Below are positions 34,893 to 52,063 of a DNA stretch of 52,448 nucleotides, in pieces. How positions within the stretch are numbered: position 1 is the first letter of the stretch; each line of letters starts with the position of its first letter. Source of the DNA: a virus. The notes beneath the pieces are model-generated. The model saw nothing but the letters and a program-made list of their open reading frames with translations, was not told where the DNA came from and searched no databases. The position numbers and the translations under genes were made by a program. The stretch covers positions 1-52,448 of IMG/VR virus record IMGVR_UViG_3300036852_000332; one strand, written 5' to 3'.

Positions 34893-34921
34893 AGAGTACC
34901 CGCGAATGAGTACAGTGTCAA
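34893..34921 (-). promoter_or_regulatory. Consensus-like promoter of the minus accessory operon with GTAC operators
   Basis: On the minus strand TTGACA (complement of 34916-34921), a 17-nt spacer and TACTCT (complement of 34893-34898). GAGTAC-type half-sites recur within and next to it (plus-strand GTACAGAGTAC and GAGTACAG), a likely operator. The -35 overlaps the integrase stop codon region. Confidence 0.6.
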
Positions 34922-35928
34922 GGGTGCCGCGCCGGCTCGGGGGAAGGCGAGCCGGCGCGGGGGTCGGGCAGCCCCTCGACCGCGTCCCACGCGTCGGCGT
35001 CGTAGGCCGACACGTAGCGCTGGGTGGTCTTCGGGTCGGCGTGGCCGAGCAGGTGCTGGACGGCATGGAGGTTCCGCCCGTGGCCAGCAGCGAGAACCTC
35101 GACCGCGAACGTGTGCCGCAACGCATGCGCCGACTCGGTGATTTGGGCCACCTTGAGCGCGGCGTTCAACTCCGCCCCGACCGTCTTGCGCGACAGGCCC
35201 CGGTCGGGGTGGGCATGCTGCGCAAGCACCGGCCCGAGGACTGGCCGGCCGGCCAGGGCCAGGTGGAGGATCTCGGCGACGAGCGAGGCCAGCGGCACCA
35301 CCCGCGGCCGGCCGCCCTTGCCGATCACGTCCAGGTGCGGGTGGTGGCCCAGGACCACGTGCTCGATCCGCAAGGACGCCATCTCGGCGACCCGCAACCC
35401 GGCGCCGTAGCCGAGCCAGACCTCCAGCCACACCCGCGGCGTTGGCGCGGCGGTCTCGAGCAGCCGGGCAATCAGGTCCAGGCCCAGGCTACGTGGCGGG
35501 CCCGGGTGGACCCTCGGCATGACCATGCCGGCGAACGGGTCGCGCCCCACGTGCCGAGTGGCATAGGCCCAACGGTAGAACGCGCGCACCGACGCGGCCT
35601 CCCGCGCCTTGGTCGAATCGGCCAGGTACGGGCCCCGTGAGTTGCCGCCGGGGACGGCGGGACGGGCCAGGAATCGGCGCAGGTCCCGTTCAGTCACGCG
35701 GCCGGGCTGCTTGCCGCAGTGCGCCCAGAACGCCCACAGACAACGGTGGTACTCCTCGAGGGTCCGTGGTGCGCGGGCGGCATCCTCAAGATGGGCGCGG
35801 TAGGCGGCCCACAGGCGCGCGCGCTGATCGGCAGGCACCGGGAGCCCCCCCAGGTCTCGGTCCTTTGCGGCCCCCGCCACCGAAGTGGGCACGCTAGCAA
35901 GGCGCCCGAAGGGCGCGGCACTGCTCAT
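34918..35928 (-). CDS. int: Tyrosine integrase
   Basis: 336 residues. SAM-like N-terminal core-binding domain about 34-140 (YRAHLEDAARAPRTLEEYHR...). Catalytic domain has Arg179 (GYGAGLRVAEM), Lys204 (GKGGRPR), HALRH (His268, Arg271), LLGHADPKTTQRY (His296, Tyr305), the full R-K-H-R-H-Y set. Catalyses attP/attB recombination. The repressor gene ends 13 nt upstream, so both may share a transcript. No attP core could be fixed from sequence alone. Confidence 0.93.
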   Translation of the reverse strand: MSSAAPFGRLASVPTSVAGAAKDRDLGGLPVPADQRARLWAAYRAHLEDAARAPRTLEEYHRCLWAFWAHCGKQPGRVTERDLRRFLARPAVPGGNSRGPYLADSTKAREAASVRAFYRWAYATRHVGRDPFAGMVMPRVHPGPPRSLGLDLIARLLETAAPTPRVWLEVWLGYGAGLRVAEMASLRIEHVVLGHHPHLDVIGKGGRPRVVPLASLVAEILHLALAGRPVLGPVLAQHAHPDRGLSRKTVGAELNAALKVAQITESAHALRHTFAVEVLAAGHGRNLHAVQHLLGHADPKTTQRYVSAYDADAWDAVEGLPDPRAGSPSPEPARHP

Positions 35929-36545: not shown

Positions 36546-36794
36546 TTGAGCGATCAGGACAGGACGAGCCCCTACGGCCGGGTGATTCGTCGGCTCCTCA
36601 AGGAGCGCAAGTGGAGCCAGATGGAACTCGCCCGCCGCTCAGGCCTTGGCCTCCAGGCCGTCAACGCGATCATCACCGGCCGTAGCCCGCGTCCCCAGAC
36701 CAGCAGCATGGACGCCATCGCTGAGGCGTTCGGCGTCCCCCGCGCCGAGCTGTACGCCGAGGCGCCAGAGGGAGTGACCAATGGCGCCGCGTAG
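36546..36794 (+). CDS. Cro-like XRE regulator
   Basis: 82 residues from TTG 36546, with AGGAG 8 nt upstream. YGRVIRRLLKERKWSQMELA followed by RRSGLGLQAVNAIITGRSPR is a full XRE helix-turn-helix; SSMDAIAEAFGVPRAELYAE closes it. First gene of the early plus operon, opposite the repressor, so probably the lytic-switch regulator. Confidence 0.8.
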   Translation: MSDQDRTSPYGRVIRRLLKERKWSQMELARRSGLGLQAVNAIITGRSPRPQTSSMDAIAEAFGVPRAELYAEAPEGVTNGAA

Positions 36795-37371
36795 CAAAGA
36801 CCTCTACTTCATCCAGGCGGCCAAGGTCGACCTCATCAAGATCGGCTCCAGCTTCAACGCGGTCCGGCGCACGGAAGGCTTCCAGGTCGGCAGCCCGGTC
36901 GCCTTGCGGCTGATCGGCGTGATCGAGGGCGCTGGTACATCAGAACGTGAACTACACCGCCGCTTTGCCGCCGCTCACGCCCACGGCGAGTGGTTCCACG
37001 CGACGCCTGAACTGCTCGCCTACGTTGCCGAGCATGCCCGGCCGGCCCGCTCGAAGACCGAACGAGTCGAGCCGTCGCGTGACCCGACCGAGGCAGCCAA
37101 GCCGTTCGCCTGGCGCGACCTCGCCCGTAAGCGGCGTCGCTTCCTGGAGCTCACCTGCGCCGAGGTTGCAGACGCGATCGGCGTGGGGGAGCCGACGCTC
37201 TGGCGCTGGGAGACCGGCAAGGGGCCGCAACCCCGCGTCCACCAATTCGAGGCGTGGGCCGCCGCGATCAAGGTGGATCCGGTCGCGCTGCTTGCGGCGA
37301 AGGAAGAAGACGCGATGGTGATCGCAATGGCCCCGGATTCCGAACCGGCCACGCCGAGGGGGGCAGCGTGA
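36781..37371 (+). CDS. GIY-YIG-like (MUG113/T5orf172) domain fused to XRE HTH
   Basis: 196 residues. N-terminal YFIQAAKVDLIKIGSSFNAV...LRLIGVIEGAGTSERELHRR...EWFHATPELLAYV is the MUG113/T5orf172 branch of the GIY-YIG superfamily. After a linker, CAEVADAIGVGEPTLWRWET...FEAWAAAIKVDPVALL is an HTH. A phage regulator or DNA-targeting nuclease; antirepressor activity is an alternative. It overlaps Cro by 14 nt. Confidence 0.75.
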   Translation: MAPRSKDLYFIQAAKVDLIKIGSSFNAVRRTEGFQVGSPVALRLIGVIEGAGTSERELHRRFAAAHAHGEWFHATPELLAYVAEHARPARSKTERVEPSRDPTEAAKPFAWRDLARKRRRFLELTCAEVADAIGVGEPTLWRWETGKGPQPRVHQFEAWAAAIKVDPVALLAAKEEDAMVIAMAPDSEPATPRGAA

Positions 37372-39377: not shown

Positions 39378-39571
39378 CCGCCGCCGCGCACCTCGCCTCC
39401 TTCGAGGCCGCCGGGGACGCCGCCGTCCACGCCCACCTCATGTTCAGCCACCGCGAGCGGCTACGGCAGCTCGGCCTGGACGGTCCCACGCTGGCCGGCC
39501 AGTCGGCCGCGCTGCTGCACCGCCGCGTCCACGACGACGAATGCTACTTCCCCACGGAGGCCCCAGCATGA
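39374..39571 (+). CDS. Hypothetical protein, 65 aa
   Basis: GTG 39374, GTGA overlap. HLASFEAAGDAAVHAHLMFS, HRERLRQLGLDGPTLAGQSA. Helical; precedes an HNH gene. Unknown function. Confidence 0.5.
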   Translation: MTAAAHLASFEAAGDAAVHAHLMFSHRERLRQLGLDGPTLAGQSAALLHRRVHDDECYFPTEAPA

Positions 39572-40083
39572 CCACCCTGGAAAGCCCGATCGTCGGCCTC
39601 ATCCCGGTCCGTGGCGGCGCCTACTCCGTCGATCCTGTCCGGGGACTCGTCTACGGCCCACGCGGCGTCCCGATCGGCAACCCCGATGGCTCCGGTCATA
39701 TCCAAGTCGACGGCCGCTCTCGTCAGCTCGGCCAGCCATTCGCCCACCACCTCATCTGGGAAGCCGTCCACGGCCCGGTTCCTGATGGCTTGGAGATCAA
39801 CCATCGCAACGGCATCAAGGCCGATAACCGCATCGCCAACCTCGAGGTGGTGACGCGGCAGCAGAACGTTCTGCACGCCTATGCGACCGGCCTGAAGTCC
39901 AACGCGGGCGAGAAGCACCCGAGCCACCGGCTCACCGAGGCCCAGGTCCGCGAGATCCGCCGCCGCGCGGATGGTGGCGAGCCGCACAAGCTGCTGGCCG
40001 CCGAGTACGGCATCAGCCGCCGCCAGGTCAACGACGTGGCTGGCCGCCGCGCCTGGGCACATGTCACAGAGGAGTCGGCATGA
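39568..40083 (+). CDS. HNH endonuclease with C-terminal HTH (operon-embedded)
   Basis: 171 residues, ATG 39568. AHHLIWEAVHGPVPDGLEIN is followed by HRNGIKADNRIANLEVVT, the HNH_3 core (Asn-His, Asp-Asn, Asn-Leu-Glu), then a HASH-like QQNVLHAYATG and an HTH (TEAQVREIRRRADGGEPHKL...YGISRRQVNDVAG). Unlike the other HNH genes it is coupled by 4-nt overlaps on both sides and lacks the hairpin leader. Confidence 0.85.
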   Translation: MTTLESPIVGLIPVRGGAYSVDPVRGLVYGPRGVPIGNPDGSGHIQVDGRSRQLGQPFAHHLIWEAVHGPVPDGLEINHRNGIKADNRIANLEVVTRQQNVLHAYATGLKSNAGEKHPSHRLTEAQVREIRRRADGGEPHKLLAAEYGISRRQVNDVAGRRAWAHVTEESA

Positions 40084-41294
40084 CCGAACTCGATACCTAC
40101 GACGAGCAGGCCGCGCGGGGCATCCGCACCCTCACCTACCGCTACCGCGAGCTGGGTCGGCTCCGTGCCGGGGAGCAGCGCGTCTCCCGCAACGGCAAGC
40201 GCTATCCCGTCAAGCTCGACACGTTCCGGTTCACCTCGACGGACTGGCGGCTCATCCAGCGTGCCGCCGACCTCTACGGCGGTACGCCGTCCCGCTGGGA
40301 AGACGCGCCCGGGTGGAACAAGGACAAGCAGACCGGCCGCCGCCAGTACCAGGTCACCGTCGAGGCTGACCGCATCTTGGTGTCGATTCCCGAACAGCAG
40401 CAGCTCTCCCAGTGCATGGAGCACTGGACCGCCGCCGGTTGCCAGCGCCGCTGCAACGGCGTGGCCATGACCACCGGCGAGCCGTGCGAATGCCGCGCCG
40501 AGATGGCCTCAGGCGCACCGCAGCTCTGCGACCACGTCACCAGGGTCAACTTCGTGCTACCGAACCTGCCGGGGCTCGGCGTGTGGCGACTGCAGTCGCA
40601 TGGCGTGTTTACCGCCTCGGAGCTGCCGTTGCAGTTGGCCATGGCCTCTAGGTACGGCCCGGACCTTGAATGGTGGTTGCGCCTGGACCCGCGCACCTAC
40701 CCGACCACCGACGAGCACGGCAAGCCGGTGACGTTCCAGTATGGCGTGCCGGTCCTGGATACCGACCGGACCCCGGCCGAGCTGTACGCGCTGGCCGCGA
40801 CCGAGCAGGCCTCGCTCGCGCTTGAGGCGCCGACCGCCCAATGGTCCGTGCCGGGCCCCGACCAGGCCCCCCCGGTCGGTGTGCCCGGCGCGGACTTCAC
40901 CGGTGGACGGGAAGGCGCGGCGATGGCCACGGCGCGCCTCCCGGCCCCTGACCCCGACGCTACCCCCGCGTCGGGTGCCAGCCCCGCCACACCCCACCGT
41001 GGCCGTCCCAGGGCTGGCCAGCCGGCCGCCGAGGGTGGCGCCTCACCCTCGGCGCCGGCCCCAAGCTCGTCCGGGGAGGTGGCCGGTAGCGCGAGCGCCA
41101 GCACCCTCGCACAAGGGAAGCACACCTCCCCGGACGACGACCCGGAGGGCGAGGCCGCCCGGCTGTTCGCCGAGCGCGCCTGCACCTGCGCCGACGACCC
41201 CGCCGTTGGGGTGGGTCCCGACCCCGGCTGCCCGATCCACGCCCGCGCGCCGGACGGCTGGCCCCGCGACACCAACGAAGGGACCGCACCGTGA
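40080..41294 (+). CDS. phiC31 gp3-like protein (recombination directionality factor family)
   Basis: 404 residues. RYRELGRLRAGEQRVSRNGK, YPVKLDTFRFTSTDWRLIQR, AADLYGGTPSRWED and CMEHWTAAGCQRRCNGVAMT...CECRAEM match the conserved N-terminal two-thirds of gp3-family factors. The C-terminal 140 residues are Ala/Pro-rich and end in a Cys-rich CTCADD...GCPIH. In phiC31 gp3 directs the serine integrase; here the only visible integrase is a tyrosine type, so its role is probably replication or another early function. Confidence 0.75.
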   Translation: MTELDTYDEQAARGIRTLTYRYRELGRLRAGEQRVSRNGKRYPVKLDTFRFTSTDWRLIQRAADLYGGTPSRWEDAPGWNKDKQTGRRQYQVTVEADRILVSIPEQQQLSQCMEHWTAAGCQRRCNGVAMTTGEPCECRAEMASGAPQLCDHVTRVNFVLPNLPGLGVWRLQSHGVFTASELPLQLAMASRYGPDLEWWLRLDPRTYPTTDEHGKPVTFQYGVPVLDTDRTPAELYALAATEQASLALEAPTAQWSVPGPDQAPPVGVPGADFTGGREGAAMATARLPAPDPDATPASGASPATPHRGRPRAGQPAAEGGASPSAPAPSSSGEVAGSASASTLAQGKHTSPDDDPEGEAARLFAERACTCADDPAVGVGPDPGCPIHARAPDGWPRDTNEGTAP

Positions 41295-41602
41295 CCACGA
41301 CCGCGCGGGGCCTCACCCCCGACGAGGAGCTCCTGCTCGCCGAGCTCCGGGCCCGCCACGCGGCCCGGACCCGCGCCCGCCGCGGCGAGCAGCAGGCCCG
41401 TGACCGCCGCGGCGAACCCCTCGAGCCGCTGCTGCGCACCGCCGAGGTCGCCCAGTGGCTGCAGGTGTCCCAGCGGACCGTCCTGGCCTGGGCCGCCTCG
41501 GGCCGGCTGCCGAGCATTACTACCCCCGGCGGGCACCACAGGTTCCGCGCCCCGGACGTCGAACGGGTCCGCGCCGTGATGTGGAAGGACTCCCAGCCAT
41601 GA
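41291..41602 (+). CDS. MerR/BldC-like helix-turn-helix protein
   Basis: 103 residues, GTG 41291. The N-terminal half is a charged helix (LLLAELRARHAARTRARRGE). The C-terminal RTAEVAQWLQVSQRTVLAWA...GRLPSITTPGGHHRFRAPDV is a winged MerR-type DNA-binding unit. Tandem with a second similar gene; one of the two may act as excisionase. Confidence 0.75.
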   Translation: MTTTARGLTPDEELLLAELRARHAARTRARRGEQQARDRRGEPLEPLLRTAEVAQWLQVSQRTVLAWAASGRLPSITTPGGHHRFRAPDVERVRAVMWKDSQP

Positions 41603-41814
41603 CCGCCACCCGTCCCACCTACCTGCGTGCCGGCCAGGTCGCCAAGATCCTGCTGGTCTCGCCGAAGACGATCTCCCGTTGGGCCGCCGAGGGCAAGCTG
41701 CCGCACCAGCGCACCCTCGGCGGGCACCGCCGCTACCGCGAGGCCGATATCCGCGAGCTGATCCGGACCCTCGACCAGACAGGCGGCCAGGGAGGTGAGG
41801 CCGGCAATTCCTGA
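41599..41814 (+). CDS. BldC-like DNA-binding protein, possible excisionase
   Basis: 71 residues, ATG 41599. YLRAGQVAKILLVSPKTISR then WAAEGKLPHQRTLGGHRRYR and ADIRELIRTL closely follow the BldC pattern (PKT-x-x-RWA-x-x-GKL, TLGGHRRYRE). Such small proteins bend DNA and act as phage excisionases or regulators. Last gene before a 159-nt gap. Confidence 0.8.
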   Translation: MTATRPTYLRAGQVAKILLVSPKTISRWAAEGKLPHQRTLGGHRRYREADIRELIRTLDQTGGQGGEAGNS

Positions 41815-41973: not shown

Positions 41974-43932
41974 GTGACGCAGGGCAGGCAGCGATTCTCT
42001 GAGCCAGAGCGAGATCGGCTCTGGGATCTATGGAGTGGTCGCTGTGCCGAATGCGGCAAGCCGCTTGAGGCTGGATGGCACGTCGATCACGAGGTGCCGC
42101 GAGTTGCTGGCGGGCCGACTGCCCTCGGCAACGGCCGGCCGGTCTGCCCGGAGCACAACCTGAAGAAGGGAGCACGAATGGAGTTGCGGCGTGCACAACA
42201 GCAGCTCGTTGAGAAGGTGCTGGACAACGTCGCGCGCCGCAAGACGGTCACGGTCGCGCTGCTGGCGCCCGGTGCGGGCAAGACCCTGGGCTGGGAGGCA
42301 GCGGCCAACGAACTGTACCGGCCGCCGAGGGGTCAGGTCCGGACGGTGGTCGCGCTCGCGCCGCGGCTCAACCTCTGTTCCCAGGCTGAGCTGGAATGGG
42401 CACAGCGCCACTCGGGCTTCCCGAAGCCACGGATGGGCAGCATCGCCCACGCGCCGAACCGCCGACCGCTCCTGAAGCCGGACGAGTGGGGCTACACGAC
42501 GACCTACTCCTCGTTGGTGTCGAAGCCCTGGATGCATGTGGATTTCGCGCAGGAGCACCTCGACCAGTTCCTGCTCGTCCTGGACGAGGCGCAGATCCTT
42601 GGCATGGATGAGGAGCAGGGGACGCAGGCCGCGAAGTACGTTCAGCAGATCCAACCGCTCGCCTTCCACACGATCCTGCTGACTGCCACCCCCGAGCGTG
42701 CTGATGGCCAGCCGCTCCTGTTCGCCTCCTACGGGGAGAAGGACGCCCACGGCTACCGGAAGTTGCTGGCTGACGTGGTCTCGGGCTACCGCGAGGGCAT
42801 CACCGAACGCTACCTGCGGCCGTACCAGGGGGACCTGACCGACGCCACGATGCGTCACCGCTGGGTGGGCGCGGCAGCGGCAGAGGAATGGCGGCTCTCG
42901 GAGAATTCTGACGAGCTGTACAAGTTCATCCGCCAGCCGGAAGTGTGGCAGCCCCTTGTCGACCAGACGGTCGAACGCATCCGCAGGATCAAGCTGCTCG
43001 ATCCGCGGTACTGCGGGCTGATCGCCGCCGCGTACCAGGACGATATCCCTGACATCCAGGCGTACGTGGCGCAGCACCATCCCGACATGAAGGTGCTCGT
43101 GGCACGGTCCGCCGACCCCGGCAAAGAGGGGCTACGGAACCTTGCCCAATTTCGGCAGGGCGGTCATGACCTGCTCATCACCGTCCGAATGGCCTACATC
43201 GGCTATGACCATCCGCCGATCACCGCCATCTGCGTCCTGACCAACTTCCGGGACAAGGGGCACCTATACCAGCTTGTTGGCAGGGGCATGCGCGTGTGGA
43301 GGGAACGGCCGGCCTCCGAGCAGCACCTCTACGTGATCGCCCCGCAGGACAGGAAGATGCAGGACTTCCTCGTCGAGCTGCGGGCAGAGACCGAGGCTGG
43401 CCTGCGCGAGCGAGCCCACCGAGAAGGCGGTGATCCGCCTGGCCCGCCACGGCTGGGGCAGGTTGAGGAGACCCACATCGGGGACACCGCCACGATCGGT
43501 TTGGAGCCGGACGGCGACCTGGAGCCGGCGGAGCGGACCTGGCTGCGTGAGCAGATGGAACGGCACCACCTCGTGATGGCTCCCGAGTCAGGCGTCGCCA
43601 GCCTCTTGCGGGCGGCAGGTGGGCTCATCCTCGGAAGGTCCGCAGCCCCACCGGCCGAGCCCGTGGTTGCGGCCCCCGTGGCGACCAAGACGCGGGAAGA
43701 GCAGCGCCGGGAGAAGGGCGTTGCATGCAGGACGGCAATTGCTCGCTATCTCGCACAGCATGAGGGTCTCACCTCGCAGGGAACGCCGGTGCAGTTCCGG
43801 GACCGCGTTCGGTACCTAAACAACTGGCTCAATGGCGAACAGCGAGTGCCGAACGTCGAGCACCTCAGCCTTGAACAGTGGGACGAGCGTCTGCGGATCA
43901 TCCAGTCGTGGCCGAGCGGCGGCGCGCCATGA
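41974..43932 (+). CDS. HNH nuclease-SF2 helicase fusion protein
   Basis: 652 residues from GTG 41974 behind TAGGAGCC. Residues about 24-66 form an HNH unit (CAECGKPLEAGWHVDHEVPR...RPVCPEHNLKKG). The helicase has Walker A APGAGKT (98-104), DEAQ box (204-207), TATPE motif III (237-241) and motif VI QLVGRGMRVWR (about 433-443). The remaining 200 residues are acidic and helical. Likely unwinds DNA for replication or recombination; joining an HNH to the N-terminus is unusual. Confidence 0.85.
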   Translation: MTQGRQRFSEPERDRLWDLWSGRCAECGKPLEAGWHVDHEVPRVAGGPTALGNGRPVCPEHNLKKGARMELRRAQQQLVEKVLDNVARRKTVTVALLAPGAGKTLGWEAAANELYRPPRGQVRTVVALAPRLNLCSQAELEWAQRHSGFPKPRMGSIAHAPNRRPLLKPDEWGYTTTYSSLVSKPWMHVDFAQEHLDQFLLVLDEAQILGMDEEQGTQAAKYVQQIQPLAFHTILLTATPERADGQPLLFASYGEKDAHGYRKLLADVVSGYREGITERYLRPYQGDLTDATMRHRWVGAAAAEEWRLSENSDELYKFIRQPEVWQPLVDQTVERIRRIKLLDPRYCGLIAAAYQDDIPDIQAYVAQHHPDMKVLVARSADPGKEGLRNLAQFRQGGHDLLITVRMAYIGYDHPPITAICVLTNFRDKGHLYQLVGRGMRVWRERPASEQHLYVIAPQDRKMQDFLVELRAETEAGLRERAHREGGDPPGPPRLGQVEETHIGDTATIGLEPDGDLEPAERTWLREQMERHHLVMAPESGVASLLRAAGGLILGRSAAPPAEPVVAAPVATKTREEQRREKGVACRTAIARYLAQHEGLTSQGTPVQFRDRVRYLNNWLNGEQRVPNVEHLSLEQWDERLRIIQSWPSGGAP

Positions 43933-44540
43933 GCACGCGGGTCATCAGCAACGCGGCGCGCAGCCATGAGGAGGAGCTGCGCGACCGGCTGCGGCTGGCT
44001 GTCCGTCGGGACGGTGGCGACCCGTCGTCGTTCTTGGAGCTGCTCTCGGATGCCGTGGCGGAGCGGATCTGGGAGAAGCTCGGCACGACCCGGTCCTTCC
44101 GGGAATTCGTCGAGGCGCCGATCCCTGACGGACTCGGTCTGGACGAGGCCACGCTGTCACGGCTGATCGCCTTCTCGCACCACCACGAGGACAAGGACCC
44201 AGGCTTGCGCGAGAGCTTGGCCGGCATGCGACGGTTCGTGCGCAGCGAGCTAAATCCCAAGGCTCCCGAACATGTAGGGCGTGGACATAGCTCTGATAAT
44301 ATCAAACCTAACTCTGGTGGAGACAGCGAGACCTATTGGCTGCGCCGGCTCAAGCGGGACGCCCCGGAGCTTGCCGAGCGCGTCCTTGACGGTGAGTTGT
44401 CCGCCAATGCCGCCGCGATCAAGGCTGGCCTGAAGCCCCGCAAGATCAGCGTCAGGATCGATGACGTGTCCCTGCTAGCGGGGACGCTGCGCCGCCGCCT
44501 GACCGCCGATCAGCTCACCGAACTACGGGGGCTGCTGTGA
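43929..44540 (+). CDS. Hypothetical DNA-metabolism-associated protein
   Basis: 203 residues, ATG 43929 (ATGA overlap). ERIWEKLGTTRSFREFVEAP, LDEATLSRLIAFSHHHED, YWLRRLKRDAPELAERVLDG and ANAAAIKAGLKPRKISVRID are blocks seen in orphan proteins next to replication genes in bacterial and phage genomes. An A/T-rich patch (44268-44322) interrupts the G/C-rich coding. Function unknown, possibly a helicase partner. Confidence 0.6.
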   Translation: MSTRVISNAARSHEEELRDRLRLAVRRDGGDPSSFLELLSDAVAERIWEKLGTTRSFREFVEAPIPDGLGLDEATLSRLIAFSHHHEDKDPGLRESLAGMRRFVRSELNPKAPEHVGRGHSSDNIKPNSGGDSETYWLRRLKRDAPELAERVLDGELSANAAAIKAGLKPRKISVRIDDVSLLAGTLRRRLTADQLTELRGLL

Positions 44541-45292
44541 CCGTCCAGGCGATGGCGTACGTGATCGAGCACTCGCGCGCCGACACGATGGCGACCTACG
44601 CGGTCCAGTTCACCCTGGCGAACTACCACGACCGCGAGACCGGCACGGTCGGCCCGGTCGGCCTCAGCCGGCTCGCCAAGGAGTGCCGCTGCGCCCGCTC
44701 GACCGTGCAGGAAGCCATCGTGAGGCTGGTCGAACTGGGCGAGGTGGTCATCATCGACCAGGGCGGCCAAGGCCGCGGACGGTCCAAGACGTACTGCTTC
44801 CCCCGCTTCGATAAAAGGCCGCTCACCGGCCTTTTAGGTCGGCCGGAGTCGGTCTGGCTCGCCGATGATCCACAGGTTCCACAGGCTGTGGACGAAATTG
44901 ATCCACAGGCCGAGAAAAGGCCGGAAAGTGTAGGGAAAGGTACCGGCAGCCGGTCATCACGTATAAGGAATAACCAAGATCCGAGTACCCCTACGCGCGC
45001 ACGCGCGAGAGCAAACGGCGACGATCCACAGCCACAGTCCACAGCCCCCTACCGCCACGACCCGGCGCCACGACCCGGCCACGACCCGGCCGCGTGCGCG
45101 CTGTGCGCCGACCCATCTGGCAAGCCCGCCCCCGCCGAGGCCCGCCGCGGGTGGCGCGAGGCCGTCGGTGCGCGGCCGAACGACTGGCCCGACGGTCCCG
45201 CTGAGCCGCCGCCGCTGGACTCTGAAGCCGAACGCGAGCGGCAGAAGACGGTGCTGGCCGAGCTGATCGAGAAGGGCGGCGAGCGGCCGTGA
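44537..45292 (+). CDS. Replication initiator-like winged-helix protein
   Basis: 251 residues, GTG 44537. N-terminal winged HTH (TLANYHDRETGTVGPVGLSR, CARSTVQEAIVRLVELGEVV...GRGRSKTYCFPRF), then a 110-residue disordered linker and a short C-terminal acidic region. Position after the helicase and embedded DnaA-box-like iterons parallel the lambda O arrangement, in which the initiator gene contains the origin. The linker DNA is less G/C-rich. Confidence 0.65.
   Translation: MTVQAMAYVIEHSRADTMATYAVQFTLANYHDRETGTVGPVGLSRLAKECRCARSTVQEAIVRLVELGEVVIIDQGGQGRGRSKTYCFPRFDKRPLTGLLGRPESVWLADDPQVPQAVDEIDPQAEKRPESVGKGTGSRSSRIRNNQDPSTPTRARARANGDDPQPQSTAPYRHDPAPRPGHDPAACALCADPSGKPAPAEARRGWREAVGARPNDWPDGPAEPPPLDSEAERERQKTVLAELIEKGGERP
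44812..45043 (+). other. Candidate phage replication origin inside the initiator gene
   Basis: Six 9-mers ending in TCCACA: TGATCCACA at 44866 and 44899, GGTTCCACA at 44875, TCGTCCACA on the minus strand at 44887-44895, CGATCCACA at 45022 and CAGTCCACA at 45035; actinobacterial DnaA boxes are TTGTCCACA-like. A 10-bp hairpin TAAAAGGCCG/CGGCCTTTTA (44812-44836) lies upstream and an A/T-richer stretch (about 44955-44990) between the box clusters. Confidence 0.55.
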
Positions 45293-48201: not shown

Positions 48202-48359
48202 CCGCGCCCGCGCCGCCGGGGACGCTGCGCCCCTGCGACGGCTCCGGCACGCACGGCTGGGTCGAACCCGCCGTCGTTCCCACCATCTCGGCCCGCCTCG
48301 CCGTGTGGACGTGCGAGGCGGGCGGGTGCCGCTGGAAGCTGGGCGGTGACGGCCGGTGA
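48198..48359 (+). CDS. Small zinc-ribbon-like protein, 53 aa
   Basis: GTG 48198, GTGA overlap. LRPCDGSGTHGWVEPAVVP then LAVWTCEAGGCRWKLGGDG. Cys-x5-His and Cys-x4-Cys spacing fits one zinc. Unknown function. Confidence 0.5.
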   Translation: MTAPAPPGTLRPCDGSGTHGWVEPAVVPTISARLAVWTCEAGGCRWKLGGDGR

Positions 48360-48439
48360 CCGGCTACCTCGCCTGGCTGCTGGTCTGGCTGCTCATCGCC
48401 CGGCTGGTGGGCTGGCTCACCGGGGGGCGGACCACGTGA
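48356..48439 (+). CDS. Single-helix membrane peptide, 27 aa
   Basis: GTG 48356 with GTGA overlaps at both ends. VTGYLAWLLVWLLIARLVGW then LTGGRTT: one transmembrane helix and little else. It directly precedes the membrane-anchored FtsK/Tra-like ATPase and could be an accessory subunit. Supported by overlap pattern only. Confidence 0.45.
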   Translation: MTGYLAWLLVWLLIARLVGWLTGGRTT

Positions 48440-49581
48440 CCGCCGTCCTCGTCACCGGCCTGGCCGGCTGCGTGGCCGCCGCCGCGCTCACCTTCGGTGT
48501 GCCCCTGGTCCACTTCGTCACCGTCTGGTTCCGGCTGACGACGATCGCGACCACCCTGGGCGCCTACGACTCTTCTCATCAGGCCGAAAGCGCCTCGCAC
48601 CCCAGGACCGGCATCCGCCCGCGCCCACCCGAACGCGGCCACGTCCGCCCCGCCCTCGGCGGCTGGGCGAACGGCCTACCGCGGTGCTGGGTCATCTACG
48701 GCAAGACCGTCCCCCCCTCCGACAAGTTCGACCGGTTCGAGCGCGAGGCCCAGCACTACACCGACCTCGCCTGGACGCTCACCCGCCGCCGCCGGGGCCG
48801 TTCCCTCTTGCTCGCCCAGGCCCCCGCCCTGCCCGAGATCCCCACCCAGCCCGAACCGGCGTTCCTCGCCCCGTGGGTCCTGCCCGTCGGCGACACCGCC
48901 TTGGGCCCGGCGGTGTGGGACGTGACCCGCGCCTACCACCGCCTGGTCGTCGGCCGCACCGGCTCGCAGAAGACCAGCCACGCCGCCTGGCTCGCCGGCT
49001 ACGCCGCCCGGATGCGCCACTGGACCGTCATCCGGATCGACCCCGAGGTCGACGACCCGCCCGGCTGGCTCGACAAGCTCCGCACCCTCGACGCCGCCCT
49101 CGAACGCCAACCCGCCGACGTCACACCGCTGCACCGCTACCTCGTCCTGGTCGACGAGTTCGACGACGTCATGGACGACGCCAAGACCGACGACCACCCG
49201 GCCGAGCGCGCCCAGTGCCGCCGCCTGGTCCGCAAGCTCCTCCGCCACGGCGGCAAGCGCGGCATCCACGTCGACGCCTACGCCCAGGACCCCCGCGCCA
49301 AGGTGCTCGGGTCGGGGATCCGGTCGAAGTTCGGCGCCCGCGCCGCCCTCGCCCTCGACCACGCCGAAATACCGCTCGTCCTCAACCAGACCGTCTCGTA
49401 CGCCCCCGACCAGCCCGGCCGGGGCTGGTTCCTCGTGCCCGGCGCGAAGCCCGCCGACACCCGGTTCCACACCGTCCCGATCCAGCAGCCCCAACCGTAT
49501 TTTCATCCCGCCGATCAGGGGGCGCCGACGACCCGCGTCACCCGAATCTACGGCGCCATCGGCGCGAAAAAGTGGAGGTAA
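48436..49581 (+). CDS. FtsK/Tra-like DNA translocase ATPase
   Basis: 381 residues, GTG 48436. Hydrophobic N-terminus (AGCVAAAALTFGVPLVHFVT) anchors it in the membrane; Walker A GRTGSQKT (173-180), Walker B LVLVDEFDDV (Asp240, Glu241), and a TraB/FtsK-like C-terminal half (KRGIHVDAYAQDPRAKVLGS, IRSKFGARAALALDHAE). Related proteins move double-stranded DNA in mating of actinomycete integrative elements. In a phage it may segregate or transfer DNA. No wHTH gamma domain is visible. Confidence 0.75.
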   Translation: MTAVLVTGLAGCVAAAALTFGVPLVHFVTVWFRLTTIATTLGAYDSSHQAESASHPRTGIRPRPPERGHVRPALGGWANGLPRCWVIYGKTVPPSDKFDRFEREAQHYTDLAWTLTRRRRGRSLLLAQAPALPEIPTQPEPAFLAPWVLPVGDTALGPAVWDVTRAYHRLVVGRTGSQKTSHAAWLAGYAARMRHWTVIRIDPEVDDPPGWLDKLRTLDAALERQPADVTPLHRYLVLVDEFDDVMDDAKTDDHPAERAQCRRLVRKLLRHGGKRGIHVDAYAQDPRAKVLGSGIRSKFGARAALALDHAEIPLVLNQTVSYAPDQPGRGWFLVPGAKPADTRFHTVPIQQPQPYFHPADQGAPTTRVTRIYGAIGAKKWR

Positions 49582-51098: not shown

Positions 51099-51533
51099 AT
51101 GCGCGAAGTCGCCGTCTGGTTCCTGCTCGCCTGCCTTTCGGCCGGCCTGTTCAAGTTCGTCCTGATCCCCTGGGCGATCGGTCGGCTGCCGACCGACCGC
51201 TACCACGAACACCTCCGCTCACCCGAGTGGGCCGCCACCGTTGCTCGGCTTGGCGCCACCCGGCGTGGCCGCCGCTGCGCCGCCTGCTTAGGTACGCTCG
51301 ACTTGAACGTCCATCACGTATTTTACGTGAATCTCGGATTCGAGAGACTTTGGCAATTGGTCCGGTTATGCGACCGGCATCACCGGATGGTGCATACGGC
51401 CTCCGAGTGGGTCTTCTCAAGCAAGACGCGGGGCCTTTGGCTCACGACCCCATCCGTCATCGTCTGCACACGCCTCACGCACCTTGGCCGGCGTCAACCC
51501 CGCCGTTCCCTCGACGCGCGCTGGCGCGCGTAG
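51099..51533 (+). CDS. HNH nuclease with N-terminal membrane anchor
   Basis: 144 residues, ATG 51099. VWFLLACLSAGLFKFVLIPW is a probable transmembrane segment; RCAACLGTLDLNVHHVFYVN then RLWQLVRLCDRHHRMVH forms an HNH core (Cys-x2-Cys, His-His, Cys-x2-His-His). Codon use turns A/T-rich around 51290-51480. Convergent with HNH D, overlapping it by 40 nt. Confidence 0.65.
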   Translation: MREVAVWFLLACLSAGLFKFVLIPWAIGRLPTDRYHEHLRSPEWAATVARLGATRRGRRCAACLGTLDLNVHHVFYVNLGFERLWQLVRLCDRHHRMVHTASEWVFSSKTRGLWLTTPSVIVCTRLTHLGRRQPRRSLDARWRA

Positions 51534-52063
51534 TAGCAGGTCTTGCAGTAGCGCGTCGGCGTCTTCCGCCACTTGTCGGCGGGAAAGATTCCGTCAAGCG
51601 GGTGGCCGTGCTGGCAACGTTCCCGACGTGCTATGGCTCGGGCGACGTTCACGGCGAGGGACACCGCGTCCAGGTGCGCCGGGTTGCAGCAACGGCGGTG
51701 CAGGCACGTCTTACCGCCACGGCACGCCTTATCGCGGTTGTGGCAGGTGTGGTCGACGGTAAGGCCCTCGGGGATTGGGCCGTTGGTCAGCTCCCAGACC
51801 TTGCGGTGCGCGAGGATGATCTGCTTCGGCCTGGACATCGCGCCGTAGCCGTCCGGGGTGAGACCTCCGAGCCAAGGCCAACACTCGTCCGGCCCCCGTT
51901 GGTCGACCTTGATCCAGACGCGCTGCTCGGGCGTGATATCCACCGGCTGGATACCGGTGTAGCCGTACCGCTTCCAGCGGTGGTAATCCAGCTCGCACAA
52001 GCCCCGGGCGTAGTGCTTACACTCGCAACCCGGATGGGAACAGCGGCGGGTAACCTTCGCCAT
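51494..52063 (-). CDS. HNH endonuclease D with zinc finger (reverse strand)
   Basis: 189 residues from ATG at 52063; an upstream in-frame ATG at 52159 would read through the leader hairpin and is rejected. N-terminal finger CSHPGCECKHYARGLCELDY, then CWPWLGGLTPDGYGAM and LAHRKVWELTNGPIPEGLTV, HNH core DHTCHNRDKACRGGKTCLHR...CCNPAHLDAVS, and a C-terminal CQHGHPLDG...YCKTCYYARQ. Carries leader copy D. Same family architecture as A and C. Confidence 0.85.
   Translation of the reverse strand: MAKVTRRCSHPGCECKHYARGLCELDYHRWKRYGYTGIQPVDITPEQRVWIKVDQRGPDECWPWLGGLTPDGYGAMSRPKQIILAHRKVWELTNGPIPEGLTVDHTCHNRDKACRGGKTCLHRRCCNPAHLDAVSLAVNVARAIARRERCQHGHPLDGIFPADKWRKTPTRYCKTCYYARQRASRERRG

Follow-up and report, generated by a model that had tools for sequence, protein, structure and literature searches.

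RadD (YejH) of E. coli is a repair-type SF2 protein that speeds RecA strand exchange (PMC8887467) and can partly stand in for RecG at forks and in the resolution of repair intermediates (PMC7470958). ZRANB3 is a eukaryotic fork-remodelling ATPase that is also an ATP-dependent structure-specific HNH endonuclease, its HNH domain resembling the Holliday-junction enzyme T4 endonuclease VII (PMC5481773). Archaeal XPB (PDB 6p4f, 6p4w) is a DNA-repair SF2 motor that works with a nuclease, Bax1. The domain types joined in the gene described here are known, and their joint architecture has so far been annotated piecemeal. In the open-licence literature, no description of an HNH-SF2 phage family, or of an HNH-SF2-partner module, was found.

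The window, the whole stretch of DNA analysed, is the 52,448 bases of an IMG/VR virus record (IMGVR_UViG_3300036852_000332), which carries terminase, portal, major head, tape measure, endolysin and integrase genes.

Architecture of the fusion gene

The features of the locus, all on the + strand, are as follows.

40080..41294, +, Gp3-like recombination directionality factor gene (PF18897, 8.8e-29)
41291..41602 and 41599..41814, +, two tandem MerR/excisionase-like HTH genes (PF12728, phrog_66)
41974..43932, +, HNH-SF2 helicase fusion gene, 652 aa, GTG start, one ORF with no interruption
41989..42171, +, HNH domain (Zn-type), residues ~6-66, PF01844 above cut-off, PDB relatives ZRANB3 HNH, nickase 4h9d and T4 endonuclease VII
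42178..42708, +, RecA-like lobe 1 of the SF2 motor, residues 69-245, motifs I, II and III, ResIII and DEAD above cut-off, RadD fold
42991..43398, +, RecA-like lobe 2, residues ~340-475, motifs V and VI, Helicase_C below cut-off, conserved motif residues, fold match to residue 472
43486..43923, +, C-terminal helical region, variable, residues ~505-650, 19% mean pairwise identity, linkers with low confidence
43929..44540, +, partner gene, 203 aa, predicted all-helical, ATG overlapping the helicase stop by 4 bp, conserved downstream in relatives
44537..45292, +, winged-helix replication-initiation (O-like) gene (phrog_270 2.7e-5, phrog_8540 O-like 7.3e-5)

An AGGAG-like ribosome site lies just 5' of the GTG start of the fusion gene. 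Three Pfam domains of the encoded protein are above their cut-offs: HNH (PF01844) at residues 24-68 (27.3 bits against 21.4), ResIII (PF04851) at residues 69-242 (37.6 against 22.5) and DEAD (PF00270) at residues 73-241 (36 against 26). Helicase_C, at residues 349-440, scores 16.5 bits and is under its cut-off of 23.5. The HNH has Zn ligands C24, C27, C58 and H61 and active-site residues D38, H39, N53 and N62. Both the score above the curated PF01844 threshold and the CxxC...DH...N...CxxC/H-N core identify it as a Zn-type HNH. The RadD/XPB-like motor spans residues 69-475, and its motifs I (APGAGKT), II (DEAQ), III (TATP), V (MAYIGYDHP) and VI (QLVGRGMRVW), read by eye in two RecA lobes, are those of an SF2 helicase/translocase. 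An AlphaFold2 model built from an alignment of 55 relatives (mean pLDDT 85, pTM 0.79) has an HNH-like strand/strand/helix and two RecA lobes, with low-confidence linkers at residues 490-503, 513-515 and 552-565.

The initial annotation described a complete HNH unit followed by all major helicase motifs in one polypeptide. This is borne out by the ORF, the Pfam domains, the motifs, the model and the conservation; although Helicase_C alone is below cut-off, the motifs of lobe 2 are present and conserved.

Comparison with RadD, XPB, ZRANB3 and endonuclease VII

The best solved match of the modelled motor is RadD (VIA Z 21.0 over 335 residues, 3.5 A, 21% identity; Foldseek 1.5e-14), and a sequence profile of the motor against the PDB places archaeal XPB first (1.2e-25) and RadD second (6.4e-25). 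RadD (PDB 6jde, 7r7j, 8h5y) belongs to the same SF2 branch and has the same fold, yet it has no HNH and only ~20% identity to the window motor, which at 25.8 bits against a cut-off of 720 falls outside the RadD equivalog NCBIfam NF053632. XPB and Bax1 differ from the window protein in being two separate chains with a different nuclease, and in being cellular rather than carried by a mobile element.

An HNH profile against the PDB matched the HNH of ZRANB3 (8e-8), the HNH nickase 4h9d (2.5e-6) and T4 endonuclease VII (6.8e-5), and the domain also matches phrog_1035, 'endonuclease VII' (8e-12). Pfam Endonuclease_7 (PF02945) has no match in the window protein at E 0.1. Because Cas9/IscB-type HNH domains match the profile too, the HNH sequence does not by itself imply specificity for branched DNA.

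The window protein shares with ZRANB3 an SF2-type ATPase and a Zn-containing HNH in one polypeptide, with the D-H pair and the Zn cysteines conserved. In ZRANB3, however, the HNH is C-terminal rather than N-terminal, and the motor is SNF2 rather than RadD/XPB-like; the window gene also has its partner gene. The window protein, having neither an SNF2-family ATPase nor a C-terminal HNH, is thus not a member of the ZRANB3 family, though by analogy it may work like ZRANB3. The Zn-HNH of T4 endonuclease VII likewise has D-H and N in its active site, but the enzyme is free-standing and without an ATPase.

Conservation of the HNH domain

The initial annotation made its reading depend on the HNH residues being conserved in relatives, and this is the case. 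C24, C27, D38, H39, G47, T49, N53, C58, N62 and K65 are invariant in all 55 aligned relatives, as are G410, Q433, R437 and R440 of the motor; residue 61 is C in 54 of the 55 and H in the window protein. Mean pairwise identity among these relatives is 58% in the HNH, 36% and 40% in the motor lobes and 19% in the C-terminal region; no other region of the protein is as constrained as the HNH.

Single-protein scans of the viral and genome contigs found no relatives, which were instead recovered by alignment-based scans that yielded 80 loci in bacterial genomes and 79 in viral contigs. The 55 aligned relatives were picked for carrying the HNH, and the set of viral motor ORFs therefore gives the less biased count, both viral scan patterns having been placed in motor motifs and not in the HNH. 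In the 76 viral motor ORFs with E<1e-40, the HNH is fused in 63, encoded separately just upstream in 4 and absent from 9, two of which are truncated by the 5' end of the contig. The 79 ORFs from bacterial genomes comprise 74 that lack HNH and partner alike, 3 that carry the two together and 2 with an HNH but no partner. Because near-copies occur among the viral contigs, the tallies refer to ORFs rather than to independent events. The HNH form is confined to phages and plasmids. In a quick motor tree the window protein falls in a supported group of 13 proteins, every one of which has the HNH and the partner; the HNH state needs at least 7 changes over the tree, which has many long branches.

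The HNH is not always fused. In six contigs (L149, L153, L154, L156, L174 and L175) a separate short HNH ORF overlaps the start of the motor ORF in the same order. The motor has its own ATG in the four split loci whose DNA was read, and four split loci form one group in the motor tree with a support of 91. Since these contigs keep both as overlapping genes in one order, the HNH and the motor seem to act together even when unfused.

This bears on whether the HNH could be a selfish, homing-type insertion accidentally joined to an ordinary RadD-like helicase and functionally idle. Free-standing HNH_3 genes are indeed frequent in the record, at 39568-40080 and 51497-52063 (-), and the chromosomal relatives of the motor have no HNH (nor, for that matter, a partner gene). 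An idle insertion is nevertheless highly improbable, and already contradicted by the conservation of the domain, which is the best conserved part of the protein, has an active site invariant in the 55 relatives, always lies at the same end and is retained as an overlapping gene where it is separate. One relative (L140:7995-9812) has an HNH without the four Zn cysteines in which the DH, N and N are kept.

The partner gene

The conserved partner is the most informative feature of the locus and was absent from the initial annotation. Its product is predicted to be all-helical (pLDDT 90), and no Pfam, PHROG or PDB relative stands out in sequence and structure searches. Foldseek gave no significant match to the fold, and the best VIA scores, Z 4.7 for 14-3-3 helices and 4.0 for the ParB/Spo0J HTH, are too low to be informative for helical proteins. 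Against the PDB, a sequence profile of the partner gave only annexin matches at chance level.

Homologues of the partner lie directly downstream of the HNH-helicase in Saccharomonospora phage PIS 136, in Streptomyces plasmids and in viral contigs. By profile, the partner is next to 62 of 67 HNH-positive viral ORFs. The other five make up a divergent HNH-SF2 clade (L148, L150, L151, L162 and L164), in which the next ORF is partner-like by eye where it was read. The HNH of this clade has A, V, C-A or S-type residues, and not D, before the catalytic His (e.g. 'FHVAHLRAASHGG'), and its active site is possibly altered.

In the reverse direction, a search from the partner gave 26 loci, 25 of them with the HNH-SF2 gene, or in L184 its remains, just upstream. 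In the exception, L173, what seems to be a remnant of the partner is fused to initiator sequence. The full partner alignment was too diverse to serve as a scan query and a closer subset was used; many of the loci are contigs already found, and the independent gain is about nine contigs. At L196:2324-4918 a very divergent 865-aa HNH-ResIII protein is encoded directly upstream of a clear partner homologue.

Association with replication genes

The placement of the fusion gene at a replication locus, as initially annotated, is confirmed by the O-like winged-helix gene two genes downstream, whose start shares a 4-bp overlap with the stop of the partner. Relatives often have a replication initiator, a DnaC-like loader, a primase or DnaB as the second or third gene downstream. 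By homology to seed sequences, 19 of 56 non-duplicate loci, that of the window included, have an initiator, loader or primase homologue 2-5 genes downstream. RecT/Erf-type or exonuclease-type genes are upstream in 11 of the 56 and downstream in none; some of these upstream seeds were identified by eye, and PHROG matches back up RecT-like and exonuclease members. The remaining 34 loci, several plasmid-like contigs among them, lack any neighbour recognised as a replication or recombination gene, and on the Streptomyces plasmids the gene does not adjoin an initiator. Linkage to replication and recombination genes is thus frequent but not universal.

The initial annotation offered, as one of two roles, a nick-and-unwind replication initiator, in which the HNH would nick the origin and the SF2 motor open it. 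The initiation genes near the fusion gene, here and in the 19 loci, are in keeping with this, as are the nicking enzyme 4h9d among the HNH relatives and the lack of a match to DnaB_C (PF03796) in the 52,448-base record, the fusion protein itself being SF2 and not a DnaB-type replicative helicase. The presence of a separate O-like gene, here and in many relatives, nevertheless makes origin initiation by the fusion protein quite unlikely. Several relatives also have DnaC or DnaB, and there is no iteron array around the fusion gene, where the sole repeat is one of 28 nt in the tandem HTH genes. HNH nickases are not known to use relaxase-type covalent chemistry, which also counts against this role.

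The fusion protein as a replacement for DnaB or RusA was also considered, and is weakened by co-occurrence in some records. RusA is also present in 3 of 22 records with the HNH-helicase, which is therefore not simply the sole resolvase.

Distribution in phages and plasmids

PIS 136 is the sole match among 50,697 deposited phage records (26.6% identity). Matches in Streptomyces plasmids have 25-38% identity, with 12 across the HNH region among the matches listed. The HNH is present in all six Streptomyces plasmid loci read; in two of these it precedes the annotated start. The proteobacterial and Euzebya plasmid matches examined (L009-L011) have the motor only. The fusion is carried by about 60 viral contigs. 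The initial description of such fusions as uncommon among phage replicative enzymes is therefore upheld by the deposited phage records, with their single match, but not by the viral contigs and the 12 listed Streptomyces plasmid records. PIS_093 of PIS 136 and the copies on Streptomyces plasmids (e.g. SAP1 WP_011109672.1) share both the HNH-SF2 architecture and the downstream partner gene with the window, but have only 25-38% identity to its protein, and are annotated merely as DEAD-like helicase or HNH endonuclease.

In three cases, PIS_093 (L002:7989-9833) and Streptomyces plasmid loci L007:6974-8926 and L008:6971-9070, the annotated start drops an in-frame HNH; in PIS_093 the start lies after the HNH and the ORF is open upstream, where the HNH is encoded. 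On a Streptomyces linear plasmid, a MobF relaxase gene is directly upstream of the HNH-helicase (L003:4787-6709).

The limitation of the HNH form to mobile elements, and its portability among very different neighbourhoods, would also suit an anti-phage or anti-plasmid (superinfection) effector of prophages and plasmids, with the partner as a specificity or control subunit. Helicase-nuclease pairs are common in defence, for example the SF2 fused to an HKD nuclease in PbeA (PMC10853773), and PADLOC gave a weak, helicase-only match to PbeA (2e-4). The locus is not a PbeABCD system, in which an HKD nuclease-SF2 protein is accompanied by ABC-ATPase/DndE genes; the nuclease here is an HNH. Moreover, the nameable neighbours are mostly replication and recombination genes and not defence genes, and the operon of the fusion gene is here directly coupled to an initiator. 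The restriction-like effector initially proposed as the second role is not supported. ATP-dependent restriction (Type I/III, Type ISP) comes with a cognate methyltransferase, but PF01555, PF00145 and PF02384 have no match in the 52-kb record, possibly a fragment, so no self-protecting methyltransferase was found and classical restriction is disfavoured. The effector role is thus unlikely.

Proposed function

The favoured reading, ranked above the defence effector and the origin nickase, is that of a motor-coupled nuclease which would process forks or recombination branches during the element's own replication. We give this about an even chance. The RadD/XPB-like ATPase would translocate along or remodel branched DNA (a fork, D-loop or recombination joint), the N-terminal Zn-HNH domain would nick or cut the DNA at the branch, and the small helical partner, translated from the same transcript, would recruit, regulate or load the HNH-motor. 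The best reading by analogy is an HNH-motor working like ZRANB3, or like endonuclease VII plus RadD.

This branch-nuclease reading is favoured because of the functions of RadD and ZRANB3, the HNH matches to both ZRANB3 and endonuclease VII, and the needs of replication in a staphylococcal phage, which requires an initiator, a loader and an annealing recombinase (PMC5499656). It is supported by the invariant HNH and motor active-site residues in the 55 relatives. Counted against it is one viral clade (L157, L158 and L161) that keeps motor and partner while the HNH is neither fused nor directly upstream. We infer the nuclease and ATPase activities, the branch substrate and the role of the partner from sequence. 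Since 34 of the 56 loci and the Streptomyces plasmids are without a replication neighbour, the role may also be a different one, in transfer, maintenance or defence.

As both halves and the neighbouring gene are retained in many phages and Streptomyces plasmids, the module looks like a mobile DNA-replication or recombination tool. More tentatively, the HNH-motor and partner, with HNH and motor in one fused protein or in two coupled genes, may be a prokaryotic module of mobile elements and the equivalent of ZRANB3 in phages and plasmids. The helical partner would then target or license the translocase-nuclease to replication or recombination branches. If so, this widespread module would provide a small, testable bacterial model of fork-remodelling-and-cutting helicase-nuclease fusions, of which eukaryotic ZRANB3 is a known case, and a function for a protein family absent from Pfam and PHROGs. 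It would also explain genes labelled only 'DEAD/DEAH helicase' or 'HNH endonuclease', in some of which a wrong start codon cuts off the HNH.

Other features of the record

The two tandem HTH genes (41291-41814) have a common 28-nt repeat that is 82% identical, which suggests that they arose by duplication. The record has an integrase of phrog_1 at 34921-35880 (-), a tyrosine-type family, together with the Gp3-like factor upstream of the HTH genes; Gp3 factors usually serve serine integrases. A single gene at 36781-37371 encodes a MUG113/T5orf172 (GIY-YIG-like) domain followed by a helix-turn-helix. An FtsK/SpoIIIE-like gene at 48346-49581 is reminiscent of Streptomyces plasmid transfer genes.
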